From Pseudomonadota bacterium (GTDB taxonomy: Bacteria > Desulfobacterota > Desulfobulbia > Desulfobulbales > SURF-16): DNA of 64,000 nt. This document shows, piece after piece, positions 12,694 to 33,308 of the stretch. The notes beneath the pieces were generated by a model that was not told the origin of the DNA, made no database searches, and saw nothing but the letters and a program-made list of their open reading frames with translations. Every line of letters begins with the position of its first letter. Position 1 is the first letter of the stretch. The stretch is taken from positions 1 to 64,000 of the forward strand of contig JAHIVT010000145.1 in NCBI GenBank assembly GCA_018816555.1, given 5' to 3'. The position numbers and the translations under genes were made by a program.

Positions 12694-12705
12694 CAGGAGG
12701 AAGAA

Positions 12706-13962
12706 ATGAAAAAATTAATAGCTGAAGGCTACCAGCCCATCGATACACTCATTAAACCAAACACCAACAATCCCTGGTCCTGGAAAGATAAACTGTTTCT
12801 CGGATTAACTCCAAAGGATTACATGAAGCAACTTTTTCGTAATCCCTTCAACTGGATACTTGCCATCATTTATGCAGTCGGAATTCCGATCCTTGTCGGA
12901 CGTTTCATATTCGGCCTCGGCTGGGCTACCCATGGTTCCTACGATTATCCTTGGGGGCTTTTTCTTGGCTGGGGTCTGTTTGTCATGGTTCCCTTATCCG
13001 CTTCCGGGTTTATGATGGGAACCACGGTCGAACTCTTCGGCAGAAAGGATTTCAAGCCGATTGAACGTCTCGGTCTGTTAAACGGACTGCTTGGCTACTT
13101 CTTCGCTGTTGTCTTTCTCCAGGTCGACCTCGGCCAACCATGGCGTCTGGTTTACCCAATGTTTGTTTCACTCGGGCCTGCAGCGGTTCTCTTTCTGGTG
13201 GCCTGGCATGTTGCCACCTATCTCTCCGTGCAGATTGCCGAATTAGTGCCGGCAACCAGCGAGTTAATGGGATGGGTAAAGCCCAAAAAATTCATCAAAA
13301 GCATCGTATTGGGACTGACCATCGCAGGTATCATACTTTCTACTCTGCATCAGGGCGCTTTGGGTGCACTCTTTACCTATGCGCCCGGCAAGGTCCACCC
13401 CCTCTGGTATTCGGCTGCCTTCCAATGGTTCCATTTTTTCTGCTCTTCCATATTCGGCGGCCTTTCCATGCTGATTGTTGTCAGCACCCTCAGCAAATGG
13501 TTCTTGCAATGGCGATGCGATGCCAATTTCAGCAAAAATCTCGACAAGATCACCTTGGGGATAGCCAAGGGTTGTTCTATGGCCCTCATCACCTATCTTG
13601 TTATCAAATTGGTTGCACTTGCCCATGATAATGAGTGGGGATATCTCCTTACAAGTTGGGGGCAGTTGTATATTTTTGAAATTATAGCGGGTTCCATCGT
13701 GCCACTCGTCTTGTTTACCATGGCTATCCGGACGGGCAGAGCAGGACTCGCACGTTTCGCCGCCTTTATTGCTGTATTCGGCATCGCTTTAAACAGGTTG
13801 AACACGGCCCTGATAGCCTTTAACTGGCATCTATATCAGGAAATTCCTCACTGGCGCGAGTTTGTTATCGCCATAACCGTTTATGCCACATATATCGTTG
13901 TTTACCGGGCAGTACTGTATCGTCTTCCTATTCTTTACACGTGGCAGGGGGATTCCAAATAA
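12706..13962 (+). CDS. NrfD/HybB-type integral membrane quinol oxidoreductase subunit
   Basis: 418 residues, strong AGGAGG site. About ten hydrophobic helices spread over the length, as in HybB and the longer NrfD proteins. Acidic and aromatic residues between helices are consistent with a quinone site near the periplasmic face. It shares an operon with the cytochrome and FeS subunits. The family passes electrons between menaquinol and periplasmic FeS or haem partners. No molybdopterin or hydrogenase subunit is near, so the complex probably works as a quinol:cytochrome c oxidoreductase. In sulfate or metal reducers such complexes may run in either direction. Confidence 0.92.
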   Translation: MKKLIAEGYQPIDTLIKPNTNNPWSWKDKLFLGLTPKDYMKQLFRNPFNWILAIIYAVGIPILVGRFIFGLGWATHGSYDYPWGLFLGWGLFVMVPLSASGFMMGTTVELFGRKDFKPIERLGLLNGLLGYFFAVVFLQVDLGQPWRLVYPMFVSLGPAAVLFLVAWHVATYLSVQIAELVPATSELMGWVKPKKFIKSIVLGLTIAGIILSTLHQGALGALFTYAPGKVHPLWYSAAFQWFHFFCSSIFGGLSMLIVVSTLSKWFLQWRCDANFSKNLDKITLGIAKGCSMALITYLVIKLVALAHDNEWGYLLTSWGQLYIFEIIAGSIVPLVLFTMAIRTGRAGLARFAAFIAVFGIALNRLNTALIAFNWHLYQEIPHWREFVIAITVYATYIVVYRAVLYRLPILYTWQGDSK

Positions 13963-14036: not shown

Positions 14037-15896
14037 ATGATTCTTCCGCTCAAATCAACCATCTACACTATTTACCTGGCAGTCTTTGCCGCTTTGGTAA
14101 TCCTCCTAAGCCAGGGAGTACGCCAATATCAGCTCTATCATGAACATGAAGCCATTATCTCACAGACCGAAAGTCTTATTTTTCAATTTTCCATTATACG
14201 CGAACACGTGTCTGAGGCCCTTCTGGAGGATGGTCAGCAATCGAAACTTTCCGGCATTTCTACGGAAATGGAAAAACTTAACACCAATCTGACGGCCATT
14301 CTGAGTGAAAAAAACATTGGAGATGAATATAAGCTGCCTTTTTTAAACAGCATTGATCTGCCCGGCATTATCCTGCTGCTGCGAAAAATTGAATCAGGCT
14401 CAGGGGAAATTGAAAACAAACGCAACCTAAACAGTGAAATGCGCACCCTGGGAGAAAGACTCCTCCTCTTCGACCGGGTACTGGTAAATAACTCTAAAAA
14501 GAAGGTGATTGGATTTCAGAATATTATCATCGGCTCAGCTACTTTTGTCGTCTTTTTGCTGGTGACAGTGCTGACCCTTTTCCATCGCCAATTGATTGTA
14601 CCATTGCTGCAACTTGTCAGCAAAAGTAGCGAGGCTGCTTCCGGGCAGAACATCGTTATCCAGGTAAATAGTCCATCCAAGGAATTAACAAATCTGACCG
14701 GTACCATTACCGATCTACTGGAACAACGCAGTGATTTACAAATGCAGATGCAAAGCTATCGTCAAACCTTTTTAGAACTTGTTACTTCGCTGAAAGGTTT
14801 TTACGTTGTAATTTCCCGTGACGGAATAATTATTGATATCAGTTGTAATATTGCCGAAAAATGCGGGTTCAGCCCCGCGGAATTGACAGGCCGACAATGG
14901 CGTGATTTTTTCACTATGCCACCCAATGAAGCTGAATCCACGTTTTCCGATGCCCGATTTCTTGAGGACTCCGCCACCACATGCCGTCCATTCCATATGT
15001 CACTGACGACAAAAGAGCAAAGCCCTCCTGCTCATATTCGTTGCAGCTTCATCAAATATCCCGAGGAGGGAAACAGTGAATCGTATCAAATATACTGCCT
15101 GGGGATTGATCTATCCGAAGAGCAGACAGAGATAGATGGACTGAAACAATGCCTTGCTGCTGAAATAAATAAAAAGGCGGAAATGGTCCGTGTATCACAC
15201 TTTGCCATACTTGGAGAGCTGTCGACAGGAGTTGCCCATGAAGTCAGTAATCTCAGTAACGGGATCATTAATTATGCCCAGGTCCTTGCCGATGCAGCTT
15301 GTGATCCTGACTTTGAAATTGAACGGGACAAACTTTTTAAGAAGATTATTGTGGAGGGAGAGAAAATAGCAGGCCTTGCCAAAAACCTGCTCGCCTATGG
15401 GCAGGATGATGCGCAATCAAAAGAACTTGCCCCGATTGAAGATGTTTTGCAGAATTCACTCAATCTCATGAGCCACTATTTCAGGATCGACGGAGCCACC
15501 GTTGAAACAAACTTCAATACCAGCATGCCTTACAGAACAAATGGGCGGCAGATGCAGCAGGTCTTTCTCAATATACTCAACAATGCGCGTCGTGCACTCA
15601 ACGAACGCTATCCACAAAGGAATGAAAATAAAATAATCAGGGTCAGCACCAATGAAATTGAAAAAAACGGCGAAAAAATGATCCGCCTGAGCTTTACCGA
15701 TTTTGGCATTGGAATATCAGATGAGAATTTAAAAAAGGTTTTTGAGCCTTCATTTTCAACGAAACCCGCTTCCGAGGGAATTGGGCTGGGGCTTACAGTG
15801 AGCCGCGAACTTATTGCCCAGCACCGTGGAGAAATTTATATGGAAAGCCAGCCCAATGACCACACAACCGTGACGGTAGAACTACCGGTTATTTAA
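14037..15896 (+). CDS. membrane-bound HAMP-PAS histidine kinase
   Basis: 619 residues, AAGG six bases before the ATG. Two membrane helices (about 8-26 and 162-182) enclose a helical periplasmic sensor of no recognised type; then HAMP (about 185-235), PAS (about 245-360), HisKA with His401 (VAHEVSNLSNGIINYAQ) and HATPase (N-box NILNNARRALN, G1 DFGIGI, G2 GIGLGLTVS). The H-box has Ser where the usual Pro of HExxNP would be, but the His is intact. The NGIINYAQ signature links it to the two soluble kinases at 2538 and 4627. No response regulator is adjacent, so it may share the activator at 6284 or one elsewhere. The 3' end overlaps the convergent gene by 8 bp. Confidence 0.88.
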   Translation: MILPLKSTIYTIYLAVFAALVILLSQGVRQYQLYHEHEAIISQTESLIFQFSIIREHVSEALLEDGQQSKLSGISTEMEKLNTNLTAILSEKNIGDEYKLPFLNSIDLPGIILLLRKIESGSGEIENKRNLNSEMRTLGERLLLFDRVLVNNSKKKVIGFQNIIIGSATFVVFLLVTVLTLFHRQLIVPLLQLVSKSSEAASGQNIVIQVNSPSKELTNLTGTITDLLEQRSDLQMQMQSYRQTFLELVTSLKGFYVVISRDGIIIDISCNIAEKCGFSPAELTGRQWRDFFTMPPNEAESTFSDARFLEDSATTCRPFHMSLTTKEQSPPAHIRCSFIKYPEEGNSESYQIYCLGIDLSEEQTEIDGLKQCLAAEINKKAEMVRVSHFAILGELSTGVAHEVSNLSNGIINYAQVLADAACDPDFEIERDKLFKKIIVEGEKIAGLAKNLLAYGQDDAQSKELAPIEDVLQNSLNLMSHYFRIDGATVETNFNTSMPYRTNGRQMQQVFLNILNNARRALNERYPQRNENKIIRVSTNEIEKNGEKMIRLSFTDFGIGISDENLKKVFEPSFSTKPASEGIGLGLTVSRELIAQHRGEIYMESQPNDHTTVTVELPVI

Positions 15897-17334
15897 CCAC
15901 AACAAATGTATCCGGGGCGGCACCAAGTTCGATCCAACCCGCAACCTTGTTTGACGAAAGATCAATAACAGAGACGCCACCTTTATACTCATCCCCCACA
16001 TAAAGCCACTGACGAATGAGAGAGACATCCATTCCAAAGGGCATACCCCCCACTTGAATCCCCCGGGAGGCATTGAGCTGACCGGGTTTCATCAATGAAA
16101 TATTACCTGACCCGTAATTCGAAATATAAATATGGCTGTTGCCGAAAACAAGCCGTCTCGGTTTGATACCTACATTAATACGAAACTTGTTCCTGCCACC
16201 TGGAAGTTCAAAAACCGATACGGAATTACTGGAACTTTCTGCCACAAAGAGATAATTATCCCGCGCCAGCATACCATCAGGTGTTCCCCCTGTATCAACC
16301 GTATTGACGACCGTCAGGGAAGTTGCATCCACGAAATATACCTTCTGGGCATATGCACAGGAAATCGCAATCAGATTCTGATCCTCAAGGTAGAGCATAT
16401 ATTTGGGGCGGGAGCCAATGCGGATCTGCCCATCAACAGTACCCGTTTGCATATCGAGACGGAGCAGATTATTGCCCATCTCATCAAGCAGGTAGGCCTT
16501 CTTTCCATCTGAACTGACGGTCATATAGGTTGCTTTTACCGAAAGAGGTATCCGGATTTGATCGATCAGACTATTTGAGGTCAGCTCAAAAGTCTTAACG
16601 GCAGAGTCCTTGGGGGCAAGAACGAAAAGTCGATTAGCTGCCAGGTTTGCTGCAATAGTGGTCGGCTTACCGCTGATGCCAATGGAACCGCATACCATAT
16701 TCAGATCGGTTCTGATTATGTAAATGGTATCAAGTGCTGGACAGGAGACATAGGCCAGATCTGTCACAAGGGGAATACTCTGCAGGTTAAGGCTCATATT
16801 GGGATGGAGGATGGCTGTTCCCTGCATGGAACCTGCAGTATCCCATGTCAGGAAAAGAGATGTACTGTCTCCTTTAGCAAGGTTGAGTTCTACGGGAAAA
16901 TTGATTTCAACAACCGGATTATCCACAGACAGAAAAATCATTTCCCCATCTCGATCAAGGGCAGCCTTTTCAACTGTAAATCTGATACGTTGATATTGGC
17001 CGGCCGGAACCCCTCCTCTGCCGGCAAGAATCTGCCCGTTGGAGCGCACATCCTGACGCTGAATTTCCTCCCTGATTGTCCTGAGAGGAAACCACGTATT
17101 GTAGGACTCGACCTCAAGATTACTTATTTTCATCCACAGATTGGGACCTTCAGGCTCTTTCAAGCGCAGGAAGACAGAGAGCCTCGCATCACCGCTGCTT
17201 TCCTGAAAAGCCGCACCGGATAAGGAATCGCCACCAACCGCCCCCCCCTGCTGACAACCGGCAAGGGAAAAAATTCCACAGAGCAGAAAAAGCAAATGCG
17301 AGATGATATTTACGCCAGCCAAACGAGCTTTCAT
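15889..17334 (-). CDS. lipoprotein with DUF4382-like N-terminus and YVTN-type beta-propeller
   Basis: 481 residues from ATG 17334 (CAGG upstream; the in-frame ATG at 17379 has no ribosome site). Lipobox LAGC gives a lipid anchor after residue ~26. An N-terminal beta domain (about 45-190) resembles DUF4382 (VPAGQYQRIRF core). From about 200 on, repeated blades of about 42 residues resemble YVTN/surface-layer propellers. It is the last gene of the minus-strand cytochrome cluster, 271 bp after the OmcS-like gene, with a dispersed repeat between them. Propeller lipoproteins and NHL proteins accompany outer-membrane cytochrome loci in Geobacter and relatives; a role as scaffold or surface-exposed partner is inference. 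Confidence 0.8.
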   Translation of the reverse strand: MKARLAGVNIISHLLFLLCGIFSLAGCQQGGAVGGDSLSGAAFQESSGDARLSVFLRLKEPEGPNLWMKISNLEVESYNTWFPLRTIREEIQRQDVRSNGQILAGRGGVPAGQYQRIRFTVEKAALDRDGEMIFLSVDNPVVEINFPVELNLAKGDSTSLFLTWDTAGSMQGTAILHPNMSLNLQSIPLVTDLAYVSCPALDTIYIIRTDLNMVCGSIGISGKPTTIAANLAANRLFVLAPKDSAVKTFELTSNSLIDQIRIPLSVKATYMTVSSDGKKAYLLDEMGNNLLRLDMQTGTVDGQIRIGSRPKYMLYLEDQNLIAISCAYAQKVYFVDATSLTVVNTVDTGGTPDGMLARDNYLFVAESSSNSVSVFELPGGRNKFRINVGIKPRRLVFGNSHIYISNYGSGNISLMKPGQLNASRGIQVGGMPFGMDVSLIRQWLYVGDEYKGGVSVIDLSSNKVAGWIELGAAPDTFVVVK

Positions 17335-17384
17335 AATAAAAAACCTGCTTTTTTTATTAATAGGAAAACTACCTGTCATTTATT

Positions 17385-17490
17385 TGCTGTCGCGGGAAAA
17401 ACCTCACGACAGCCGTACAGTGCATAATAACTTCCTGATTTATCATCACGTGAATTCGGTGCCGGGACTTTTACGAAGCCATCAATCTTT
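17385..17490 (+). repeat. dispersed intergenic repeat, copy 1 of 3
   Basis: Shares blocks CGACAGCCGTAC, GTGCAT, TTCCTGATTTATC, ATTCGG and the GGGACTTTT..CATCAA end with copies at 25000 and 51832. A further partial echo of its right end (CATCAATCTTTGG) spans the stop codon of the neighbouring cytochrome gene at 17606. Confidence 0.8.
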
Positions 17491-17605
17491 GACGATCTCG
17501 TATTTATGCACCTTAAGGATGAAAAGCAGCTCGCCCGCCTACCGTGACGATAACTCTACAATTTATTGACACGAGCATCTGACGCCAAGACTTGTTACCA
17601 AAACA

Positions 17606-18694
17606 TCAATCTTTGGTCGTATGACAAACAGCACAACCGTTAAATCCGCCCCCTGGCCACGATTTATAATCCCACCTCAATAAGCCCTGATACGGAGTAC
17701 CATGAGCCCGATGACATGAGAGGCACATGACAATAGCATCATCGGCAGCAGTATATACGGTGCTGTTTATTATTTCTGTATTACTTGCTGTGGCAACAGG
17801 CGAGATAACGCTGTAGACATTATTGGAGCCTGATCCACCGTTATATGACACATATTCATCTGTCGAAGCGGCCCTGCCCATATCAAAATCTGTGGGATGC
17901 CTCAGCCAGACACCGGCACCAAATGTGCCGGAAGAAATGTTGCCCGACCCCTGATGAAAGTCACCATGGCATTTGGCACAGAGACTGCTGATGGTGCTAT
18001 CATCGTTTTGCGTCTCCAGGGTCCTGTCAATTCCGTAATATTTGTTATGATGGCCGCTTGCCGGCCGATACTCATATTGCTGATCCTCCCATCCCTGCAC
18101 GGAGTAGAGAAAGCGATAACTTTTCGCCAATGTCGAGCCATCCTTCCATTTGGTCATATCATTGGCATGATGGGACTTCATCATGGACTTGATTTCACCG
18201 CTTACCGTACGGTCGCCATGACAACCACTGACTCCGGCACACGTAAGTTGCGAGCCTAACGCAGTTCCACCCGGGGGGATATTACCGAATCGAGTGTCAG
18301 GAATAGCGATACCGTTCACATTATGGCCGGTTGCCTCCAGTCCGCTGCTCACCCAGTAGAAATTCCCTCCAGCCAGAGTGGTGGTGGTACCCTCCGTGCC
18401 TGTGTTGCTGTATGTCGGTGGGCTGGTTTGCAGAACATATGGAGTGGTAAGACCTCCAACGCTATTGTTTCCCTGATGACAGCCAATACAGTTGGTATTG
18501 AGCAAGGCATCATTAGGTGTAAATGATAAATCAAGAGAACCATCTATCATATTCTGCGCAACAGCGGCACCTCCCTGACTGTTGTGCATGGTATGACAAT
18601 TGCCGCATTGCCCCGTAACCTTTGCATAGCACACAAGAGGAAACAGGATCAAAGGCAGCGCAACCAGTTTCTTGAGACCCTTTGTTGTCTTCAT
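17606..18694 (-). CDS. OmcS-like multihaem cytochrome, probable nanowire subunit (copy 1)
   Basis: 362 residues from ATG 18694 (AAGGGG six bases upstream; the GTG at 18700 is too close). Signal peptide ends near VCYA. Haem sites in order: CGNCH (in CGNCHTMHNSQ), CIGCH, CAGVSGCH (CX5CH, non-standard), CAKCH, CLSCH (in CLSCHRAHG), CAVCH near the C-terminus. The order and surrounding words (CHTMHNS, GHN, LRHP, CLSCHRAH, terminal CHxxKD) follow hexahaem OmcS of Geobacter, whose subunits stack into extracellular cytochrome filaments. Filament formation here is inference from that likeness. It is co-oriented with the multihaem, chaperone and NHL genes upstream, and 12 bp from the NHL gene. A paralogue lies at 30043. 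Confidence 0.85.
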   Translation of the reverse strand: MKTTKGLKKLVALPLILFPLVCYAKVTGQCGNCHTMHNSQGGAAVAQNMIDGSLDLSFTPNDALLNTNCIGCHQGNNSVGGLTTPYVLQTSPPTYSNTGTEGTTTTLAGGNFYWVSSGLEATGHNVNGIAIPDTRFGNIPPGGTALGSQLTCAGVSGCHGDRTVSGEIKSMMKSHHANDMTKWKDGSTLAKSYRFLYSVQGWEDQQYEYRPASGHHNKYYGIDRTLETQNDDSTISSLCAKCHGDFHQGSGNISSGTFGAGVWLRHPTDFDMGRAASTDEYVSYNGGSGSNNVYSVISPVATASNTEIINSTVYTAADDAIVMCLSCHRAHGTPYQGLLRWDYKSWPGGGFNGCAVCHTTKD

Positions 18695-18706
18695 GGTCAC
18701 CCCTTT

Positions 18707-19594
18707 TTAACGGCCAAATACTTCTACACGACCATTACCCTCTTCTACAACACAAAGACCTCCCCACGGGTCAAATAATATCTCGATCGGGAAATAAAGC
18801 TCTCCTCGCCCCCATCCCTTGGCAAGAAAGGTATATTTAAAACTTCCCTCTGTGTCAAAAACAGCAATAGCTGGTGCATGACGGTCAAGTACGTAAATAT
18901 TGCCGGCAGGGCCGATTGCCAGCGATACAGGAAATTCCAACGTCTGGCCGACATCAAAATTTTTGATCAATTTTCCATCGTGGTCAAATTGAACCACTTT
19001 TTTATCCAGTAGATCCAAGGCCCAGATACCATCATTTACGAGTTTAAAATCAACGATGCCAGAGGTGCACTCAGCACATGATATCCAGCTCTTCACAGTA
19101 AGGTCGCTATTCAGTAAAGCAATTTGTCCGGTTTCTTTATCAAGGATATAAAAAATACTATCCTTATAGTCGATACGATCCAAGACAAGCGTTCGCGAAC
19201 CATCCTTTATGATGTGCGTTAAAATTTCTTTCGCCTTGATATTAATACTTGTCAGACTGTTACGGCCTTTCTCCACTACCCATATGACATCGGCGTTATC
19301 ACGAACCATATCATAGGGAATCTGAAGTTTGCCTTCCGCGGCAAAGGCGAGAAGAAAATTCCCTTCCTGGGAATAAGAAAGCAATCTGTTGTTGCCGCTG
19401 TCAATCACATAATACCGTTGACGCTCGGCATCTATATACAGGGCAGTAGGCATGACAATGGCTTGACCGGATCCTGCGCCGTCAAGTGTTGCCTTCCAGG
19501 CCCAAGGTTCGGCAGCCAAAGAAGTTGTCGCGACCATAAAAATTGAGACTGCCAGCAATGCTGACTGGCTCAAAATATTTTTCACGTACTTCAT
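18707..19594 (-). CDS. periplasmic or secreted NHL-repeat beta-propeller
   Basis: 295 residues with AGGAG before the ATG and a signal peptide ending SLAA. About five to six NHL-like blades (VIDSGNNRLLSY, NIYVLDRHAPAIAVF, FPIEILFDPWGGLCVVE) fill the rest. It contains CAEC followed by Thr, a CXXC pair without the His needed for haem c, so perhaps a disulphide or a lost haem site. It lies 12 bp upstream of OmcS-like copy 1, so the two are almost certainly co-transcribed. NHL proteins next to omcS-type genes are known in Geobacter; their job (assembly, secretion or filament capping) is unproven. Confidence 0.88.
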   Translation of the reverse strand: MKYVKNILSQSALLAVSIFMVATTSLAAEPWAWKATLDGAGSGQAIVMPTALYIDAERQRYYVIDSGNNRLLSYSQEGNFLLAFAAEGKLQIPYDMVRDNADVIWVVEKGRNSLTSINIKAKEILTHIIKDGSRTLVLDRIDYKDSIFYILDKETGQIALLNSDLTVKSWISCAECTSGIVDFKLVNDGIWALDLLDKKVVQFDHDGKLIKNFDVGQTLEFPVSLAIGPAGNIYVLDRHAPAIAVFDTEGSFKYTFLAKGWGRGELYFPIEILFDPWGGLCVVEEGNGRVEVFGR

Positions 19595-19650
19595 AGAGAC
19601 TCCTTCCTAATCGGCATTCAGTAATCGAAACTGTTGAATCGATATTTCCA

Positions 19651-20826
19651 TCAGTATCTCTTATGACACTGAATACACAAATCTTTCGAACCACTGTATA
19701 TCAATTCATATTTAAAATCAGACCCCATGGGCAGATGACAGGTGACGCACGTCACCATCTGACCCGTGCGCACATCAACTACCTTTTCTCCAACCGGGTG
19801 AGTAAATTTCCCCTGGGTCTCGTGGCACCTGGTACAAATGGCATTGCCATCAGCTCTCAGCATGGCAATCCTGTTTGAACCATGCACCTCATGACAATTG
19901 ATGCATGTCCCTTCTTTCGCTTTTGGATGCCGGTAAAGTTTATTTTCATAACGGGCAATGGTGTCATTATGACAGCTACGACATACCTGTAACTGACTGC
20001 CTTTTAATAAATTCTTTTCATTGCCGGCATGGGGTGAATGACATGCCACACATTTATTTTCGCCCTTGCCCGTCAAATGGCTATGTCGAGCAAGCATACC
20101 GGTGGCAACCTTCTCATGACACCTGAGACAACTCTGCGTACTGCCCTGTATTTCTCCCTTGTCATGACACTCTTTACAACCTTGGGCAAAAGGAGCATGG
20201 AGGATGTCACGAACAATACCTTTCCTGCTGCTGCCGTGTGGATTGTGACACGAAAGACAATTTCTTAGAGTTCCGGGATAATTCAGATGGCCTTTCTGCA
20301 GGTCCTGGGATTTATGACAGGACAGGCAAACTTTATCAGGTTCATCCTTAAGCAATTCCCCAAAGACTGACTGATGAGGACGATGGCAGGAATAACATTG
20401 TCCCTGGGCATAAGGACTATGGGTATATTGAAATTTCTGCGGCAGTTTATCATGGCAGCCGAAACAGGTTGCGCTTAACTGCTCCTTGAGAAGCCCGCTT
20501 CTGGAGCTGGAATGAGGCACATGGCAGGCAAGGCATTGTCCGCTACGCACAGGCTGATGGACCATACCCTGCTTGAACGCATTCTCCTCCTTTGCATGAC
20601 AGGAAAAACAGAGTGCGGAGCCTTCCGCTTCCAGCAACCCCTTAAAATGCGCCACATGGGGATTATGACAAGCGCCGCATTGCCCCTTGGCAAGCGGCTG
20701 ATGCACAACCTTGCCGCTGAATGCTTCTTTTTTGTGACATTGAAAGCAGACTGTATCTGCTGCCGCTGCTATAGGGAAAGCTATGGCAAGCCAGGAAATG
20801 ACAAAGATTCGATAATAATTTAACAT
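19651..20826 (-). CDS. 16-haem periplasmic cytochrome c
   Basis: 391 residues from ATG 20826, which overlaps the upstream stop codon by one base (TAATG), with GGAGGG just before it: strong translational coupling. Signal peptide ends AAAA. Sixteen CXXCH sites, from CFQCH to CIQCH, spaced about 20-30 residues apart and separated by repeated GLLKE / HxPxAxGxCxxCHxPH units, the doubled CXXCH motif pattern. Together with the 26-haem lipoprotein just upstream this forms a 42-haem pair. Likely a periplasmic wire leading to the outer membrane (inference). Confidence 0.92.
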   Translation of the reverse strand: MLNYYRIFVISWLAIAFPIAAAADTVCFQCHKKEAFSGKVVHQPLAKGQCGACHNPHVAHFKGLLEAEGSALCFSCHAKEENAFKQGMVHQPVRSGQCLACHVPHSSSRSGLLKEQLSATCFGCHDKLPQKFQYTHSPYAQGQCYSCHRPHQSVFGELLKDEPDKVCLSCHKSQDLQKGHLNYPGTLRNCLSCHNPHGSSRKGIVRDILHAPFAQGCKECHDKGEIQGSTQSCLRCHEKVATGMLARHSHLTGKGENKCVACHSPHAGNEKNLLKGSQLQVCRSCHNDTIARYENKLYRHPKAKEGTCINCHEVHGSNRIAMLRADGNAICTRCHETQGKFTHPVGEKVVDVRTGQMVTCVTCHLPMGSDFKYELIYSGSKDLCIQCHKRY

Positions 20827-22778: not shown

Positions 22779-24384
22779 CGAGCTCCTTTTTAATTTTCTC
22801 CCAGGCGCGGTTGTTTATTTCCATAACCGATCTTTCCTTCAGAGCGGCAAGATACTCATTGCGTACCTTGGAAAATTTTTCCTCATCAACCAAGCTGGCA
22901 ACTTTATCGTGTACATGATCAAAGGGCATGGGGGTGGCTGGAGTCCGTTTTATCAATTTTATTATTGTATGATGCCCTTTCACAACAAAGGGATTACTTA
23001 CTTCTCCAATTACCAGACTATTTACAATCTTCTGAACAATTGGATCAAGATATCTGAATTGCATGTTCTGTACCGGCACTTCTCCCTCATAATAGTGGGA
23101 CGCCACCTCAAGGAGATCAGCTCCTCTTTCCATTTCCTTATACATTTTGTTAATAAGGTTTTCTTCATCCTCCACAACGGCAATGGAGACCATTTCGGGT
23201 TGCGAGAACCGATCGAGATGTTCCTGATAATACTTTTCAATATCCTGCTCACTCACTTGAACTTGGGGCCTGAAAAGCCTTTTTTCAAGTTCCTTTATCA
23301 GGCGGTGCTGGGTATAAAAAAGGTAAAAAGGCTTTAAAGGTTCTTTTCCTTCATAATGCTCATCAAGGGCTCCTCTTGTGGTAAGAGTCTGGGCAAGCAC
23401 CCCATCAACCAGCCTTTGTTTCAGTTTATCTCCCTTTTCAACCTCAAAACCATACTGCTTACGGAACTGCAGTTCCTTGTTGACGAGATCCAGAAACACT
23501 CTCACCGTATAACTTCCATTGTCCAGGGTAATAAGTGTTTGATCAAGGAGTTGTTCATTGGAAGAATCCAGATTCAGGGCATCAAAAACCTGCTGGTTTA
23601 TTTTGACCTGATATTTTTTTTTCAACTGCTCGACAAGTCCGACAGTAAGTTCCTGCTCCTTTTTCTCCCTGATCTCATTGGTGATCTTCGGTTTCAGCAA
23701 CTCAAAATCCTCAGCATCATATCCTTTCTGTGCCACAAGACGAATGATAACAAAACCTTTACTCCAGTGGAAAGGTTCGCACATCGTTCCAGGAGCCAAA
23801 CCATCAACTACAGGACGCCACTCCTGCTGCAGTTGACTGGTTCTTAACCATTTTTCATCATAATAAACGGAATTCTTGTCAACAACCCTCGCATCAGCTG
23901 CGAACTTGGCAAAATCCAGGTTCCCTTCTTTAATTTGTTCATAAGATTTTTTCGCCACCCCTTCGTCATTAAAATAAAGAATCTGCAGCTGCAGACGGGG
24001 TAGATATTTTTCCTCATAACGATCTTTCAGTTCCCTATCTGATATTTTAACCTGGGAATTAATCTTATCTCCCTTATAGAGAAGCAACGTGCGGGCTTTC
24101 AGGAATATATCAATCTTATGACGGTACTCCGGTTCATTATAAAGCTCCATTTTTTCAGCTTCCTGAACCAACAAATGCCAATCAACAAAAGGATCTACTG
24201 ATTCAGGGAAAGGGGTGTCCTTTTCTTTCCAGTTTAACCACCAGTTTTTAAAATCGTCAGTTGTAAAATTGCTGTCATTTATGGTTACAAGTTTCTCAGC
24301 TCCCCAAGGCCACGCATGGCCGTCTCCGGCAATGGCCAATATCCATAAAAAAACAACCCCGAATATAAATCCTATTTTCCGCAT
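22756..24384 (-). CDS. periplasmic peptidyl-prolyl cis-trans isomerase with two parvulin-like domains (SurA/PpiD-like)
   Basis: 542 residues from ATG 24384 (AAGGA upstream). Signal peptide ends GHAW. An N-terminal helical chaperone part (about 20-125) is followed by a first parvulin-like domain (about 130-240, LQILYFNDEG...FAKFA), a linker with helical segments, and a second parvulin domain (about 395-505, VSIAVVEDEE...ADLLEVASHYYEGE). The C-terminus is helical. It helps fold exported proteins, possibly the beta-barrel or the multihaem proteins. Its position within the operon, overlapping both neighbours, indicates a dedicated rather than housekeeping role. The two parvulin domains are divergent, so isomerase activity is uncertain. 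Confidence 0.85.
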   Translation of the reverse strand: MRKIGFIFGVVFLWILAIAGDGHAWPWGAEKLVTINDSNFTTDDFKNWWLNWKEKDTPFPESVDPFVDWHLLVQEAEKMELYNEPEYRHKIDIFLKARTLLLYKGDKINSQVKISDRELKDRYEEKYLPRLQLQILYFNDEGVAKKSYEQIKEGNLDFAKFAADARVVDKNSVYYDEKWLRTSQLQQEWRPVVDGLAPGTMCEPFHWSKGFVIIRLVAQKGYDAEDFELLKPKITNEIREKKEQELTVGLVEQLKKKYQVKINQQVFDALNLDSSNEQLLDQTLITLDNGSYTVRVFLDLVNKELQFRKQYGFEVEKGDKLKQRLVDGVLAQTLTTRGALDEHYEGKEPLKPFYLFYTQHRLIKELEKRLFRPQVQVSEQDIEKYYQEHLDRFSQPEMVSIAVVEDEENLINKMYKEMERGADLLEVASHYYEGEVPVQNMQFRYLDPIVQKIVNSLVIGEVSNPFVVKGHHTIIKLIKRTPATPMPFDHVHDKVASLVDEEKFSKVRNEYLAALKERSVMEINNRAWEKIKKELGDLHVGK

Positions 24385-24980
24385 TGCTTCATTCCTTCGG
24401 CGAACCATTCTTCGATTATCTCATCCGCTATGATCCGACTGAGTTGCGTCACGGTATTAACAAGTCCAAAATGCATGACCTTACGATAATCCGCACCTTC
24501 CCGCCTGTGATAGGTAGACCACATCGTTTGGCCGCTTTTGGCGTCATAAACCTGCAATGTTAAGTCTAAAACAGGATTTACATAGTTATCACCCATTTTT
24601 TCTTCCATTTCCGTTATTCTGCCGCTGATTACAAGCTGAACATCAAGTCGGCTGCCAAGCACTCTGATTTGCTCGATACTGGGAAGTTGATTTGGATATA
24701 TGCGCAATTCGCGATAAATGTTCTGAACATCTCCCTCAGAGGCAACTTCAATACCGGCAATGCGGGTCAACTCTGCAGCAAAAACACGTTGCATGATAAG
24801 ATTGCCCTGTTCAAAACGGCTGCCGTTAATAAAGGGAAGAAGAGCCACCGAACAGATACTCTCACCTTCATAAACATTTTTTTTTTCGAGAGAAAGCCTC
24901 GATGAAGTACAGGAACTGACTCCCAAAAGAAGAGCGACAAGTAAAAATATGAAGAAATATCTGAATTGCGCAAAATTCAT
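24372..24980 (-). CDS. outer-membrane lipoprotein, CsgG/LpoB-like fold
   Basis: 202 residues. Lipobox VSSC at about 21-24. The mature part starts with VALLPFINGS and contains GSRLDVQLVISGRI, DLTLQVYDAKSGQTMWS and a C-terminal helix: the pattern of the CsgG/FlgT/LpoB-like anticodon-binding-fold family (conserved VAVLPF, then G..L.A..V..G.V, then ..D..TG...W). Members form outer-membrane export pores or support periplasmic assemblies. It is the third CsgG-like gene in this operon, directly before the parvulin gene (13-bp overlap). Function inferred only at fold level. Confidence 0.75.
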   Translation of the reverse strand: MNFAQFRYFFIFLLVALLLGVSSCTSSRLSLEKKNVYEGESICSVALLPFINGSRFEQGNLIMQRVFAAELTRIAGIEVASEGDVQNIYRELRIYPNQLPSIEQIRVLGSRLDVQLVISGRITEMEEKMGDNYVNPVLDLTLQVYDAKSGQTMWSTYHRREGADYRKVMHFGLVNTVTQLSRIIADEIIEEWFAEGMKQCGK

Positions 24981-24999
24981 AGTAATTGATCTGCTCGCT

Positions 25000-25113
25000 A
25001 AAATTTACTGCCTCGTTACAACCTTATCGACAGCCGTACGGTGCATGATATGTTCCTGATTTATCGTCACAAAAATTCGGCGCCTGGACTTTTTACGATG
25101 TCATCAAAATTCA
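25000..25113 (+). repeat. dispersed intergenic repeat, copy 2 of 3
   Basis: AAAATTtACTGCCTCGT start, CGACAGCCGTACGGTGCATGATA core and GGACTTTTTACGA..TCATCAAAATTC end. The right edge runs into the 3' end of the minus-strand gene at 25104 and supplies its last two codons and stop (GAATTTTGA on the minus strand). A 12-bp inverted fragment of the left end (GTTACGAGGCA) lies at about 26632-26643. Confidence 0.85.
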
Positions 25114-26579
25114 GGAACCCATTCTTGCTGCTTCGCCGGTTCAGGTTGATCATCCTCAATATTAACTAATTGCATAAGGTCATCGATTTTTTTCTGCACC
25201 TTATTGCCTAATACATCCTTCATACAGACAATAGCTTCAAGTTTCCTTGAATCTGACGGTGAGGGAAATGGAATAAGAATGTCCACTGGAAGATCAGCCC
25301 CCTGACTCTGCAACAACACTTCACCATCCGAATACAAAATTTCGGCACTCCAGTAATCCACGGGAATTTCGTCCTCAGAATCCAGGGTTACGATGAGACT
25401 GTCATTACCTACTACTGCGTTTATCACCGGAATTGGCGGAGTGCTCTTCAAAAACACTGTCTGTGTCGACACAGTGGCATTATTTGCTCTGTCCCAGACC
25501 TTTAACACAATTTCGTAAATGCCGTCTTCAGCCTTATGACCATCCGCTCGTTGTCCTTTCCAGACGAAACGATTAGGTAAAGAACCTTTATTCTCCGTGC
25601 CTGCCATGACCTGCCCCCCCATATTCTGTATAAACAGCGACCAATGGGAAAGCGGCTCAGGATCCTGCCAAATAGGGGTAATAGGCAACCTGCCATTAAA
25701 TGCAATAAAATTATTCACCTTTTTTCCGACAACTTTCAAACTTAATTTCGGTGAATGAGTATCAATCTGATAATTTCCGACAAAGAAAACAAGAGTTCTC
25801 CCCGATTGACATCTTAAAACAAGACTGACGGGCAGAATTCCTTCATGGTCAGGAGCCGACCAGAAAACAGTATAAGAGTTGGGGGATACCTGCACCATGT
25901 CGAGATAATTATCTTCCCCAATCCTAAGCAGGACTTGGGAAATCGCCTCACCCCCTGCCGGCGGTCGGATTTTAACCGAACAACTCACCTCATCACCCGG
26001 TTTCACATGCTGGGAAGATAGTCGTGAGGTTTCAACAACTATGCATTGATTTTGTCCTGTAACTTCCAGAACATCAGGCCAGCTGCTCAGAAGTTGTTGT
26101 GCAAGAACGGGAAATAAATCGTCGATGCTTTCAGGTTCATCAATAGCAAGAAAATTAGAGATGTCAGCTTTGCTCATTCCGCCGACTTCGGTCCATACTG
26201 TCCGTGCATCACTGGCACGTACCAGAGTCAGCACCATCCCGAAAGCTGCCAGAGGTAATTCCTGCCGCTGGCTGACTGTCCCGAAAAGAATAAAGTCTGC
26301 ACCGAGATCATCCCGGACTTGATAAATATGACTTGTGCCAAGAAAACCCAGCCATCGGATACGATTTCTGGACATAAACGAAATAACTCTATCCGTCGGA
26401 ATGACTTCAATCCCTTTTTCCTGCAAATTTTGTTGTAAAAAATCTGTGAGAGTGAAATTAACTCCATTACGTCCCTCACTGAGGTCTTCCACAGGGAAAA
26501 CAGCCACGGTGACAGCCTGAGCATATGAGGCAATCAGTGTGGTCATCGTCAGAAGTGTTATAATGAGGAACCTTTTCAT
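25104..26579 (-). CDS. exported protein with CsgG-like N-terminal domain and Ig/FlgD-like C-terminal beta domains
   Basis: 491 residues from ATG 26579; the signal peptide (MKRFLIITLLTMTTLIAS, cleaved near AQA) supports this start over a TTG at 26609. Residues about 22-180 resemble CsgG/FlgO-type domains (VTVAVFPVEDLS, then LGADFILFGTVSQ). Two beta-sandwich regions follow, including an RFVWKGQRADGHKAEDGIYEI segment typical of FlgD-Ig modules that carry the WDG..G..V..G.Y pattern. It has a C-terminal acidic tail. No lipobox. It probably sits in the periplasm as part of an outer-membrane assembly with the neighbouring lipoproteins. The 3' end is made by the dispersed repeat. Confidence 0.75.
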   Translation of the reverse strand: MKRFLIITLLTMTTLIASYAQAVTVAVFPVEDLSEGRNGVNFTLTDFLQQNLQEKGIEVIPTDRVISFMSRNRIRWLGFLGTSHIYQVRDDLGADFILFGTVSQRQELPLAAFGMVLTLVRASDARTVWTEVGGMSKADISNFLAIDEPESIDDLFPVLAQQLLSSWPDVLEVTGQNQCIVVETSRLSSQHVKPGDEVSCSVKIRPPAGGEAISQVLLRIGEDNYLDMVQVSPNSYTVFWSAPDHEGILPVSLVLRCQSGRTLVFFVGNYQIDTHSPKLSLKVVGKKVNNFIAFNGRLPITPIWQDPEPLSHWSLFIQNMGGQVMAGTENKGSLPNRFVWKGQRADGHKAEDGIYEIVLKVWDRANNATVSTQTVFLKSTPPIPVINAVVGNDSLIVTLDSEDEIPVDYWSAEILYSDGEVLLQSQGADLPVDILIPFPSPSDSRKLEAIVCMKDVLGNKVQKKIDDLMQLVNIEDDQPEPAKQQEWVPEF

Positions 26580-26685
26580 AATAATCAAAAAACTATAATT
26601 TTTCTGCAACTCGCAATAAAATTTACCTACAGGTTACGAGGCATACGTAAATAATATCACGATCCCTCACTCAATCACATTTTTT

Positions 26686-27630
26686 TTAAGGCTCAACAGT
26701 CGTCGATTCACCAGGTGCTGGTTCCACAACTGGAGCAGGCGGTTCAACCACTACTGCCGCAGGCTCAGCTGTCTCTATTTCTACGTCCACGGCAGGTTCA
26801 GCGGGAGCAGGCTCTTCCGGAACTGCCGGTTCACCCTCTATGCCGACTGGTTCAGCAGGTGAAGGTTCAACCTCTTCAGTTACAGGCTCAGCTGTTACCG
26901 ATTCTGCCGCTGCCGGTTCTGCTCCCACAACTGGCTCAGCAGGAGCAGACTCTTCAGAAACTGCCGGCTCAACAACATCAGTCGTGACAGATACAGGTTT
27001 AACCACCACAGGTTTAACAGCCACGGGTTCAGCATCCACTGGTACAGGCACGTTCTGCCTCTCAGGAATAGTAGAGAGAAGTCCCTTGGCAAGTTTAACG
27101 GTAACCTTATATGCATCATCAGGTGTTATGCCAAAGAGTCGCCCCACAATGGAATCTCCTGCATAATGTCCGCTGGCCTGCCATAATACTATACCAGACT
27201 TTATCTCGATAAGTCGCAAGGTCAGGCTCATTTCAGGCACAATCACCGAACCAATCCTTTTATCACCTGCCATGTCGACAGAACCAATCATAATGGACTG
27301 AACATTGAGTCGCTGTCCAAGTCTGCTGAGCATGAGTTGGCTCACAGGAGATCCCGGGTCAATTGCTTCTTCATGCAAAACACTGTCAACAATCCCTTTA
27401 TCCACCACGTCAAAGATATTCATGGCCAGAATCTGGGTATTGATCACATCCCTTGCCAGCTCAGCAGCATATTTCTGTTCCGTATTGTTTTCCAGAGGAA
27501 GAACACTGATCCTGTTGACAAAGTCAAGTGTCACATCTTCTCTCATAAAAGAAACCGTCGTTTTTCCAGAACATCCGGACAGCATGGAAAAACACATCAA
27601 CGTCAGTATGGAACATATTATTCTTTTCAT
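26686..27630 (-). CDS. CsgG-like lipoprotein with a long Pro/Glu/Ala/Val-rich C-terminal tail
   Basis: 314 residues, AAGGATT upstream. Lipobox LSGC at about 17-20. Residues about 40-190 form a CsgG-like domain (ISVLPLENNTEQKYAAELA, LNVQSIMIGSV, LTLRLIEIKSGIVLWQASG). The last ~115 residues are a low-complexity tail of repeated EP, AEP, VEP and PAP units, which is likely extended and rod-like. Such tails often cross the periplasm or peptidoglycan. Base composition in the tail follows the repeats, not foreign DNA. It is the second gene of the outer-membrane block, after the beta-barrel. A role in anchoring the conduit to the cell wall is speculation. Confidence 0.78.
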   Translation of the reverse strand: MKRIICSILTLMCFSMLSGCSGKTTVSFMREDVTLDFVNRISVLPLENNTEQKYAAELARDVINTQILAMNIFDVVDKGIVDSVLHEEAIDPGSPVSQLMLSRLGQRLNVQSIMIGSVDMAGDKRIGSVIVPEMSLTLRLIEIKSGIVLWQASGHYAGDSIVGRLFGITPDDAYKVTVKLAKGLLSTIPERQNVPVPVDAEPVAVKPVVVKPVSVTTDVVEPAVSEESAPAEPVVGAEPAAAESVTAEPVTEEVEPSPAEPVGIEGEPAVPEEPAPAEPAVDVEIETAEPAAVVVEPPAPVVEPAPGESTTVEP

Positions 27631-27684
27631 GAACAGAATCCTTGGAAAATTAAATTAAAACGTTTATCATTTAAGTTTCAAACA

Positions 27685-29727
27685 TCAGTAACGAATGACA
27701 AACTGTCCTCCGTACGCAAATTCAGTTTCATCCTCATCAATATAGCTACAATAGGCATGCATTGAAAAAATCCGATTTATAGTCCAGTTGTAAGTTGCAC
27801 TATAATCATCACTACTTTCACTATGATTATAACTCAAATTTAACTGAGTTTTGTATGTAGGTGCAACGGTCACAGTGAGATAATTTGTAATACCAGGAGA
27901 TTCATCGCTTTGCCACTCCTGGCCGGCACCCACCTGCATGGAAAGGATATCGGAAGGCCTCCAGCTTATGCCTATCAAACTGGCAGCGTTCCAGGTTGAG
28001 GTTTCAGCGTTTGAAGTGTTGTATCTTTCTGTGAGATCCACCGTCATTGCGGGATTCAGCCGTGCGGTAAATTTCAAGTTGGAATTAAAATCCTGCGAGG
28101 TCGCATCTGTCTCTTCATCACGATCGGTGATGTAAGCAAGATCAAGATTTGAGGTCAAATCAGGGAATATCAATGCGGTCAAATACATGTTGTAATTATA
28201 GCTGGTGTCTGTTTTCACATCCGCTTCATATGTATCGCTCCGGGTGACGCCATAATTCATATCAAGGGTAGGGAGCAACAGCGATGAAAAACTGAGCGAG
28301 TAATAACGTGTTTTTTCTTCATCTTCGTCCCCCACCTGATCTTTCGACTCGCTGGCGCTCAGGGTTGAAGAAAATGAGAGGGTGGGTGACCATATGAGAC
28401 TTGTTGAATTATAGGTCCGACTGATATCATCTCCGACTGCTGTTTCACCGTCCTCCAAAACGAGGTTATACGTCCAGTTGAGACCAGGGGTGATCAGGAA
28501 ACGAAGTGATGTGTCTCCCAAATAGCTGTAATAAGTTGTGTTGCTGGTAATTTTCTGTCCCGGATCACCAGTAACCCTGGTAAAGGCTTCGACCCGGCTA
28601 ATGGTGAAATCAGCGTCAGTGGGAATATGGTCTTCAACCAGCATGATAAATTTAGCTGTTACTTGCGGAATTTCAACCTCAAAGCGCTGCTGGGTACTGT
28701 CGTATATTGTGGAGGTTGCGGGTCCCTGCAAAGTCCAGTCATTTCCATTGGAGCTGGAATAGACTGTCCACTGGAAAAGGTTGAGATTTCCTGCTTCCGT
28801 TTCCCCCAGGTCGGTTTCCGTATAAATATAGAACACATTGACCGATTGTGGTGATAATTGAAAAATGGCGATATTATAACGATCATGAGGAGCAAGATGA
28901 GGAACTGTATTCGGAAAACTCGTTAAGTCATTCCATTCAGGATCATCATCAGGATCAGGCGAAGCCTGTCCACCACGACTTTCTAAGCTGTGAATGGGAA
29001 CCAGGGCGCTGCCGCCAGGATCAATTTTCGTTTCAAAATCCTGGGTGTTGTTGGCGTATTGTCCCAGAAAGCTAACATTTAAACGATCCTGCCAGAAAGC
29101 TTTTTCAGTTGTCAGACGGGCGAGTTGATTGGTTGACTTATCATTACTGTTGGCAACAAAATCATCAGACTCATTAAGGTCTATATTGTAATAGACTTTA
29201 GCGAGCAATAAATCCCAGTCAATATTGAAACCGCTGAAGGTGTTCTCTGCGTCAATCCGGCTTGGACTCTCATCATCTTTGGTGCTGCTTGCTCCATAAT
29301 TAAGCTGCACCATCGGGCAAAGTTCTTTCTGCCAGTTACTGATCCACCTGCCCTGCCAGTTACTGCTGGTCAAATCGGATCTTTCGGAGTTTCGCTGCTT
29401 ATTCCACGAGCCGGAAAGGTCAAAATAAAAGACATCGTTATTAATCTGGTAATCAAGAGAGGGAGTGATTGTCTCTGTTTCATGCCCTCCATCGAAAGTT
29501 GTCGTATAGCGGACAGTTTCGTCTATACTCATCACAGGAGTCAGCGGCTGGTCAAATTCAAGAGTAGTGCTCTGACTGACCTGAGATTCACTTCCTTCAT
29601 CTTCAGTATGCTGATATGTCCCGGTGCCGGTAAATGACAGCGGTTTTCCCAAAACGACATCGTCGCAGAGGAAAAACATCAGCAACAGGGCATAGATAAT
29701 GCCGTTATATTTTATCCCCCCTCGCAT
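27685..29727 (-). CDS. large outer-membrane beta-barrel with a discoidin-like insert, candidate conduit porin
   Basis: 680 residues from ATG 29727 (ribosome site weak). Signal peptide ends VVLG. The mature chain is almost wholly alternating hydrophobic/polar strands of 10-14 residues (LTTEKAFWQDRLNVSFLGQY, TVDLTERYNTSN, LNLSYNHSESSDDYSATYNW) and ends FVIRY, close to the terminal aromatic of outer-membrane proteins. In the middle (about 285-390) a non-barrel region resembles an F5/8-type discoidin domain (NLFQWTVYSSSNGNDWTLQG, FEVEIPQVTAKFIML). Length and composition are like MtrB/PioB-class porins, which hold a multihaem cytochrome across the membrane, although I see no clear homology. It heads the minus-strand block that includes the 26-haem lipoprotein. 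Confidence 0.78.
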   Translation of the reverse strand: MRGGIKYNGIIYALLLMFFLCDDVVLGKPLSFTGTGTYQHTEDEGSESQVSQSTTLEFDQPLTPVMSIDETVRYTTTFDGGHETETITPSLDYQINNDVFYFDLSGSWNKQRNSERSDLTSSNWQGRWISNWQKELCPMVQLNYGASSTKDDESPSRIDAENTFSGFNIDWDLLLAKVYYNIDLNESDDFVANSNDKSTNQLARLTTEKAFWQDRLNVSFLGQYANNTQDFETKIDPGGSALVPIHSLESRGGQASPDPDDDPEWNDLTSFPNTVPHLAPHDRYNIAIFQLSPQSVNVFYIYTETDLGETEAGNLNLFQWTVYSSSNGNDWTLQGPATSTIYDSTQQRFEVEIPQVTAKFIMLVEDHIPTDADFTISRVEAFTRVTGDPGQKITSNTTYYSYLGDTSLRFLITPGLNWTYNLVLEDGETAVGDDISRTYNSTSLIWSPTLSFSSTLSASESKDQVGDEDEEKTRYYSLSFSSLLLPTLDMNYGVTRSDTYEADVKTDTSYNYNMYLTALIFPDLTSNLDLAYITDRDEETDATSQDFNSNLKFTARLNPAMTVDLTERYNTSNAETSTWNAASLIGISWRPSDILSMQVGAGQEWQSDESPGITNYLTVTVAPTYKTQLNLSYNHSESSDDYSATYNWTINRIFSMHAYCSYIDEDETEFAYGGQFVIRY

Positions 29728-30042
29728 CACTCGTTACATTCCACATGTAATTAATAGTTGAAAACTGCCATTTTAATTCACCCCTTGGAATTCCCTTCCC
29801 ATACTTGACAAAAAGACATGAACACAAAGATTATGCAACAGTTAATTCACGAAAAAGCAAAATAAAACAAACACCTACTTCATTAATTTGTTAAAAAATA
29901 AATAGTACACATTCATGGACAAAAAAAATTCCGGCCTGGAAACGATTAGGAGGGAAGGGGTATCGTTTCCTGGCCGGAATTTATCTCATGCGATATTCTT
30001 TTCTTTTACTTTAACATAAAAAACACTTATACAACCTGTTCA
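29728..30042. other. intergenic region between OmcS-like copy 2 and the beta-barrel gene
   Basis: 315 bp, A/T-rich. It contains the terminator at 29921-29983. No -24/-12 promoter or clear sigma70 pair was found on the minus strand, so the downstream block may depend on an activator or on partial read-through. Confidence 0.5.
29921..29983 (-). terminator. strong intrinsic terminator after OmcS-like copy 2
   Basis: A 20-bp stem (AATTCCGGCC/GGAAACGAT arms with one mismatch) around a ~15-base loop, followed on the minus strand by a run of eight T. It separates the abundant OmcS-like gene from the beta-barrel operon. Confidence 0.9.
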
Positions 30043-31161
30043 TCAACCAGCATCTTTGGTGGTATGGCATGAAAAGCAACCACAGGCGGGATCATCACTA
30101 CCTGCTTCGCAGGTATCATAATCCCAGCGCAAAAGATCTGCATATGGAGAACCATGGGCACGATGACAGGAAATACAGTTGACTATTGCATCGCCCGCCG
30201 TTGCATTGACGTCGCTTACCGGGGCTGCAAGAGCTGCTGTGCGGTTAGTAGCAACGGGAACGAGGGGCAGATATGTCCCATCAGTGCCGTAATTCGAATA
30301 TTCTGTGCCGGGAAGATTATTCATGTCATAATCGGTTGGATGCCTGAGCCAGGCTGAACCAGCGGTGTTATCTGTGTCGGCGCCTTTATCATCAGCAGCA
30401 CCTGAGTGAAAATCACCATGGCATTCCGCACAGAGGTAGTTAATGCTTTTTGCCCCTTCGGACAGGGCGGCAGGAGGCGTATCGTTTGTTCTGTCGTAGC
30501 CGTAATATTGATTATGATCGGTTGCACTATTTGTATATTCCCAATCGCTGTCCTCATAACCGATAATACCGTAAAGAAAACGAAAACTCTTGGCAGCTGT
30601 TGAACCATCAATAGCTGAGTCGTCAGCGTGATGGGAGCCTGAGATTGCGGTAAAATCATCAACCGAGCCGCCGTCGTCATGAATACCATGGCAACCATTC
30701 GTGCCCGCGCAGGTCAGCTGCACAGCCCATGTCGCACCGCCGCCATTCAGCTCGGTATTGGCATTAAAAGCGGGATTCCAGCCTGGGGGAGTTTCTCCCA
30801 AAACAAGATCAGCTGAATTTAAACCAACAACGTTATGACCTGTCGTGTCGTCCCCTGCCACCACCCAGCGAAAGTTGCCGCCTGCAAGGGTATTGGTGCC
30901 ATAGGTAGCTGTTGTAGAGAAAACATAGGGGATATTCCCCCCACTGTTAGCTCCGGTATGACAGCCGACACAACCGCCTGACCTGTTGACCAAAGCACCT
31001 TGTGGGCCGGCTGCTACAATAGCTACTCCATCCTGACTGTTATGCATTGTATGACAGTCAACACAGGGCCCTTGGGCCTTCGCACCAACCAATTGCGGGG
31101 CCATTAAGGCAAAACCAATCAGGCCCAAACCTAGCGAAAATACTTTCATTTTTTTAATCAT
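30043..31161 (-). CDS. OmcS-like multihaem cytochrome, probable nanowire subunit (copy 2)
   Basis: 372 residues, GGAGGG before the ATG. Signal peptide ends LVGA. Haem sites: CVDCH (CVDCHTMHNSQ), CVGCH, CAGTNGCH (CX5CH), CAECH, CISCH (CISCHRAHG), CFSCH (CFSCHTTKDAG end). GHNV, WLRHPTDYDM and LLRWDY blocks match copy 1 at 17606, and the six-haem order follows Geobacter OmcS. It has its own transcription unit: a strong terminator downstream and a 549-bp leader region with two RegA-like boxes. This suggests a highly expressed, redox-controlled structural cytochrome; filament assembly is inferred. It differs from copy 1 by longer loops and more Asp and Asn residues. Confidence 0.87.
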   Translation of the reverse strand: MIKKMKVFSLGLGLIGFALMAPQLVGAKAQGPCVDCHTMHNSQDGVAIVAAGPQGALVNRSGGCVGCHTGANSGGNIPYVFSTTATYGTNTLAGGNFRWVVAGDDTTGHNVVGLNSADLVLGETPPGWNPAFNANTELNGGGATWAVQLTCAGTNGCHGIHDDGGSVDDFTAISGSHHADDSAIDGSTAAKSFRFLYGIIGYEDSDWEYTNSATDHNQYYGYDRTNDTPPAALSEGAKSINYLCAECHGDFHSGAADDKGADTDNTAGSAWLRHPTDYDMNNLPGTEYSNYGTDGTYLPLVPVATNRTAALAAPVSDVNATAGDAIVNCISCHRAHGSPYADLLRWDYDTCEAGSDDPACGCFSCHTTKDAG

Positions 31162-33255: not shown

Positions 33256-33308
33256 TTGCGGGAGTCCGTCTCAAGTTATTTCTGCGGACACCCTTGTGGT
33301 TAAATTCA

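Follow-up and report, generated by a model that had tools for sequence, protein, structure and literature searches.

A cluster of eleven open reading frames (ORFs) in the window, by which we mean the whole stretch of 64,000 nucleotides that was analysed, is real and well conserved, and we think it likely to be an Osc-type locus for extracellular cytochrome filaments, of the DA_402-type variant that occurs throughout the order to which the window belongs. The sequence-only reading had proposed a complete outfit for making, exporting and wiring such filaments. The conserved gene set fits the published osc operon and DA_402, and to that extent the proposal stands; the system itself, however, was already known. 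Since it has been described as osc, by Skennerton 2017 and in Desulfurivibrio alkaliphilus, the cluster is not a new system.

Gene content and conservation of the cluster

All eleven ORFs were recovered between 15889 and 31161 on the minus strand, one strand as had been claimed, and they are tightly packed with intergenic gaps of -37 to +312 bp (Table 1). In order of transcription the first half consists of the upstream hexahaem cytochrome Hx2, the barrel, a 314-aa LpoB/PelC-like protein, a 501-aa protein with a FlgD-type Ig domain and a 202-aa PelC/FlgT-like protein. The second half consists of the parvulin PPIase, the 26-haem lipoprotein, the 16-haem protein, the NHL propeller, the downstream hexahaem cytochrome Hx1 and the YncE-type propeller. 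Counting gave 26 and 16 CXXCH motifs for the large cytochromes, in agreement with the earlier haem counts. The lipobox LVSC is present in the 26-haem protein, previously called a lipoprotein, and the parvulin and two propellers proposed before are borne out by PF13145 and by NHL and YncE-like matches, respectively.

Table 1. Position of the cluster genes, the two haem-3 motifs and the second cluster of the same genome
Feature	Position	Strand	Remarks
Hx2, upstream hexahaem cytochrome, OmcS sister family	30043..31161	-	372 aa, signal peptide, 5 CXXCH + 1 CX5CH
Hx2 haem-3 motif CAGTNGCH (CX5CH)	30688..30711	-	residues 151-158
Outer-membrane beta-barrel	27685..29730	-	681 aa
LpoB/PelC-like lipoprotein, Pro/Glu-rich tail	26686..27630	-	314 aa; candidate OscF/G-type secretion part
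Secreted protein, LpoB-like N-terminal region (seen in one orthologue) and FlgD-type Ig domain	25104..26609	-	501 aa
PelC/FlgT-M-like lipoprotein	24372..24980	-	202 aa
Parvulin-type PPIase chaperone (OscH-like)	22756..24408	-	550 aa; PF13145 E 4.4e-24, PF00639
26-haem lipoprotein cytochrome (OscI / GSU2495-like), DmsE-type repeats	20826..22778	-	650 aa
16-haem cytochrome (OscJ / GSU2494-like)	19651..20862	-	403 aa
NHL six-bladed propeller (OscK-like)	18707..19594	-	295 aa; PF01436
Hx1, downstream hexahaem cytochrome, OmcS sister family	17606..18700	-	364 aa
Hx1 haem-3 motif CAGVSGCH (CX5CH)	18218..18241	-	residues 154-161
YncE/lactonase-type propeller lipoprotein, DUF4382-like N-terminus	15889..17379	-	496 aa; PF21783 E 3.7e-7
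Second osc-type cluster	G000:C35; L040:8622-19904, L199:1498-5680		

Co-occurrence in other Desulfobacterota had been named as a check, and most related regions do share gene set and order. Among 20 regions around hexahaem matches in related genomes the same genes occur in the same order in most (L138-L152 and L154-L156; in some of these the caller overlooked an ORF, and in one it called a single hexahaem); the exceptions are L153 and L157. Across 146 relatives a hexahaem homologue was found in 65, the barrel in 55 and both in 54 (Fisher p about 1e-27, ignoring shared descent). A chance assembly of genes was rejected on the conserved order. Some regions hold additional cytochrome genes that are missing from the window: L143, L144, L147, L155 and L156 have a 14-haem gene behind the first hexahaem, and in L143-L148 and L154 the second hexahaem is followed by an 8-haem gene.

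The same genome carries a second complete osc-type cluster on contig C35 with a true OmcS (60% identical to 6ef8, six CXXCH). There OmcS is followed by a YncE propeller, the barrel, two small proteins, the PPIase, the 26-haem and 16-haem proteins and the NHL propeller. The YncE/lactonase-type propeller of the window has homologues next to OmcS in C35 and at many named OmcS loci, and would be OscD-like.

The osc operon of Geobacter sulfurreducens, as papers citing Shen et al. 2025 describe it, comprises omcS, omcT, oscC and an eight-gene block, GSU2500-GSU2493. Our comparison was drawn from the OmcS loci of Citrifermentans and Geomonas and from the papers' descriptions of GSU2493-2501, and the Osc letters in Table 1 are putative matches by order and size. 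The Geobacter block resembles the window in its propeller, barrel, small lipoproteins, PPIase, 26-haem and 16-haem proteins, NHL propeller and OmcS-superfamily cytochrome. It differs from the window, where sister-family hexahaems bracket the block, three rather than two small envelope proteins occur and the YncE propeller is found at the far end. In the Citrifermentans and Geomonas loci the hexahaem beside the propeller is itself a canonical one, which argues against naming the window hexahaems OscC.

Skennerton 2017 described a Seep-SRB1 operon of 26-haem and 16-haem proteins, PPIase and propeller, and Murali et al. 2023 named the cassette OetABI. Both share the four-gene core and the OmcS-like neighbours with the window, and D. 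alkaliphilus is credited with two copies; the proteins were read as periplasmic or as a porin conduit, and the accessory genes differ from those of the window. Here the core of PPIase, 26-haem protein, 16-haem protein and propeller is contiguous, and the barrel, the small envelope lipoproteins and the second propeller by an OmcS-superfamily gene are present as well.

Histidine-kinase-like genes lie on either side of the cluster (14037-15896 on the plus strand, and 31711-35105) and together with a response regulator at 35147-35680 are possible regulators. At 11204-13962 on the plus strand, a five-haem class III cytochrome, a 4Fe-4S protein with a TAT signal and a polytopic membrane protein of 418 aa that looks NrfD-like by eye may form an inner-membrane quinol module adjoining the cluster. 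On the minus strand, the region 35687-44477 holds a further NHL propeller and a 10-haem gene; its plus strand has four multihaem genes, with 8, 5, 12 and 12 motifs. DsrA is also encoded in the genome.

Large cytochromes, barrel and small envelope proteins

The 26-haem protein matched TIGR03508 across seven stretches (E 4.6e-113), and its gene overlaps the 16-haem gene by 37 bp in the window. In G025, G078 and G047, which belong to three genera of one family, a single ORF carries 42 CXXCH motifs. The fused ORFs are 1010, 1021 and 1039 aa long, with unrefined starts (L149:10359-13391, L150:10346-13411, L200:3139), and an N-terminal lipobox and even motif spacing were seen in the two sequences examined in full. 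From the overlap and from these fusions to a 42-haem chain we read the two proteins as lying end to end in one compartment. MtrA holds about ten haems in 8-9 nm, and by this spacing 26 to 42 haems could span the periplasm.

The window barrel itself gave no Pfam match. Its assignment as a large beta-barrel, made previously on the window alone, agrees with the OMP_b-brl matches of two orthologues, with a hydrophobic alternation of 90 compared to 34 +/- 12 in shuffles and with the C-terminus FVIRY. One stretch of it weakly matched the galactose-binding-like domain of galactose oxidase (E 0.25), and the C35 homologue showed a weak F5/8C match (E 0.0012). By position the window barrel is probably the equivalent of the ~735 aa barrel of the OmcS clusters, OscE, and of OetI of Murali et al.

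The claim of three CsgG-like proteins holds only loosely: the matches are to LpoB/PelC and FlgT-M, and none of the three reaches the CsgG family PF03783. One orthologue of the 314-aa protein does match PF03783 (E 5.4e-9). A CsgG-like pore was rejected, as PF03783 matches none of the three window proteins and CsgG rings occur only at other loci of the genome. For the 314-aa protein PF13036 (LpoB) was found in 15 of 15 orthologues, and profile searches matched PDB 5t11, 5t10 and 5t0z (E 1e-4 to 2e-4), which we take to be PelC entries, and PelC 9h80 (E 0.009). In the family of the 501-aa protein 15 of 17 members carry FlgD_ig and one of 17 LpoB. The 202-aa protein matched PelC 9h80 (E 1.3e-4), FlgT (E 0.004) and PF16539. 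By profile, PelC or FlgT structures of the PelC/CsgG/FlgT/LpoB lipoprotein superfamily are thus matched by two of the three small proteins, and the LpoB/PelC/FlgT-like proteins may possibly form rings.

These genes can also be read as a porin-cytochrome conduit on the OetABI model of Murali et al. 2023. The barrel would then carry electrons and have no part in protein export, one large cytochrome would be periplasmic and the other surface-exposed, wired through the barrel, and the hexahaems would be surface acceptors or filaments. The cassette was described in this form beside OmcS-like genes, the large cytochromes are adjoined by a barrel, and the 26-haem protein combines DmsE-type repeats with a lipobox. 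The 42-haem fusion, on the other hand, is most easily explained by one shared compartment in the three genomes that have it, and the PelC-like lipoproteins and the PPIase fit export. In addition, PMC13194489 describes OscE-G as needed for the secretion of OmcS, with OscH assigned to folding and OscD to morphology. We regard the conduit as rather unlikely and prefer export through the barrel.

The hexahaem cytochromes, a sister family of OmcS

Hx1 and Hx2 are 42% identical to each other. Their description as OmcS-like is right for the fold and has to be corrected for the family: they are not OmcS proper and belong to a sister family, in which the haem-3 site is CX5CH and two of the distal ligands are rearranged. 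Hx1 matched OmcS in a sequence search of the PDB (E 1.4e-7); the same search with Hx2 gave no match, and the relation to OmcS is seen via Hx1 and via the fold. In the tree OmcS and the Hx family stand apart with full support. As one clade within Hx (100/98) holds 12 of the 17 downstream copies, the positions of Hx1 and Hx2 are largely occupied by old paralogues, although a few genomes depart from this pattern. Three solitary Hx paralogues are encoded elsewhere in the genome (C98:25240, C172:11506 and C91:43561); the C172 and C91 copies reach seven sites through an additional haem motif ahead of the HH motif.

Among the closest known relatives is DA_402 of D. alkaliphilus AHT2, an organism of the same order as the window genome and of a different family. 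DA_402 is upregulated more than 100-fold on ferrihydrite plus sulfide, DA_756 and DA_765 are upregulated as well, and polymerisation of DA_402 has been published only as an AlphaFold2 oligomer prediction (PMC12545173). With the published primers, which start at 13626 and 13690 of L201, we located DA_402 inside a 431-aa ORF (start 14706). It carries CAGAKGCH (CX5CH), and its score is 292 bits for the Hx profile compared to 36 for the OmcS profile; Hx1 and Hx2, nearer to the DA_402-type profile than to OmcS and likewise with CX5CH, thus belong to the DA_402-type sister clade. DA_402 adjoins the barrel of one of two osc-type blocks of D. alkaliphilus, the same position by the same barrel as Hx2, the first gene of the window cluster. 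The window hexahaems are only 33% and 31% identical to DA_402, which also has a seventh motif. In the other block (894-908 kb) two hexahaems lie nine genes apart, as are DA_756 and DA_765, and by gene counting these bracketing hexahaems are presumably DA_756 and DA_765.

For the mature Hx2 an AlphaFold2 (AF2) model was obtained from an alignment of 102 homologues with a pLDDT of 84.8 and a pTM of 0.86; an alignment of 28 sequences had yielded a poor model (pLDDT 46.6). A Foldseek search of the PDB with the Hx2 model returned a single match, the OmcS nanowire 6ef8 (E 1.7e-5, TM 0.46/0.40). VIA-align aligned 264 residues of the model to OmcS at 3.9 A rmsd (Z 15.6), spanning mature residues 6-344, and scored 4.9 against the OmcE nanowire. 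Foldseek and VIA found nothing beyond OmcS and OmcE for this model, and other folds are still conceivable. For DA_402 a DALI score of 14.3 with OmcS has been published (PMC12545173). Hx thus resembles the OmcS nanowire (PDB 6EF8, 6NEF) in fold, in the order of the six haem sites and in four of six distal histidines, at 30% identity across the structural alignment. It differs from OmcS in the CX5CH at haem 3, in the lack of the N-terminal His2 and in the moved His147 position.

The words CHTMHNS, GHN, LRHP, C[LI]SCHRAH and the final CHTTKD, which had been picked out as matching OmcS, are present and invariant or nearly so across the family. Twelve histidines are invariant in the 102 Hx sequences, six in haem motifs and six more (H15, H84, H152, H227, H249 and H311, in the mature numbering of sequence A4); H153 is conserved at 99%. 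In OmcS and 59 others the six motif histidines and H2, H16, H110, H147, H257 and H335 are invariant with one exception. The alignment paired H15/H16, H84/H110, H249/H257 and H311/H335 (Hx/OmcS); H2 and H147 of OmcS are replaced in the Hx family, His147 by a later histidine. For His2 (FHSGG, 60 of 60 in the OmcS class) no equivalent was found in the window proteins or the 102 homologues. In the published DA_402 model the first haem site is shifted (PMC12545173), which would fit the loss of this N-terminal histidine. The twelve invariant histidines could still account for six bis-His haems per Hx subunit, though with His2 absent and a non-canonical haem-3 motif the stacking at some haems may differ from OmcS.

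According to Filman et al., an OmcS subunit itself supplies 11 of the 12 axial ligands, and the remaining one, on haem 5, is contributed by the neighbouring subunit. The equivalent of OmcS His16 is invariant in 102 of 102 Hx homologues. We take His16 to be the neighbour-derived ligand on haem 5. Wang et al. are said to have named it as the cross-subunit ligand in 2019. With the modelled fold, this suggests that Hx1 and Hx2 may form filaments. They could instead be terminal reductases, exported and attached to the surface without polymerising, with the OmcS fold as an ancestral feature. Among the OmcS homologues of G. sulfurreducens wires are known only for OmcS, His2 is missing from the window proteins, and two divergent paralogues per cluster could differ in role. 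We nevertheless find this unlikely, as the His16 equivalent is kept throughout, the fold match extends over mature residues 6-344 and the homologue DA_402 has been modelled as a filament by other authors.

The six haem sites claimed for each hexahaem protein are there only if CX5CH is counted. Every OmcS-class sequence collected has six canonical CXXCH, whereas Hx1 and Hx2 have five and one CX5CH. The profiles built here gave 65 OmcS-class matches, all with six CXXCH, and CX5CH in 80 of 89 Hx-class matches, a tally that takes in some non-members as well as duplicates and fragments. After cleaning, 94 of 102 homologues have CX5CH at haem 3 and other members a canonical CXXCH, so that CX5CH is probably a haem site; its second Cys and its His are invariant in all 102. 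That the site is empty and the Hx proteins pentahaem is very improbable: the motif is unusual, and the string CX5CH was not found in full-text searches of a limited set of papers, but the invariant residues and the exchange with CXXCH speak against an empty site, six haems are matched by six invariant distal histidines, and CXnCH motifs with n = 2-5 were taken as haem sites and aligned with OmcS by other authors (PMC12545173). A CX6CH motif (CAGGGTSCH) was seen in an OmcS-type cytochrome of a Nitrospirae MAG (L081:7698).

A proposed path for subunits and electrons

We propose that Hx2 and Hx1, secreted and of OmcS fold, would be the filament subunits, each with six covalent haems in a chain of stacked bis-His haems. 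The histidine of the first CHTMH motif would probably reach haem 5 of the adjacent subunit, like His16 in OmcS. The parvulin PPIase would assist folding of the hexahaem subunits in the periplasm, and their export would proceed via the beta-barrel, whose periplasmic side would be lined by the LpoB/PelC/FlgT-like proteins, perhaps as rings. Placed end to end, the 26-haem and 16-haem cytochromes could make up an extended haem wire through the periplasm, along which the inner membrane charges the filament, and the propellers might be docking or morphology factors. The filament would exchange electrons, in either direction, with iron oxides, electrodes or other cells as partners. Against this stands the report of Skennerton et al. 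that several species respiring metals did not express the large cytochromes of the operon.

More tentatively, and with some doubt, the cluster may represent a distinct second nanowire branch, widespread in the order and separate from OmcS. Such a branch would have CX5CH at haem 3, two moved axial ligands, its own export machine and a 26+16-haem trans-periplasmic wire (42-haem in some species), with one operon leading from the inner membrane to the outside and an independent OmcS cluster in the same cell.

The placement of the 26-haem and 16-haem proteins is disputed, and the natural 42-haem fusion makes it testable, as one compartment with a long haem chain can be set against the two sides of a porin. 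The differences from OmcS named here, CX5CH at haem 3 and the moved ligands, are likewise testable. Through the cluster, the sister-clade cytochromes reported in Desulfurivibrio, which oxidises sulfide and reduces iron, are linked with a complete block of osc type for export and wiring that is conserved across the order.
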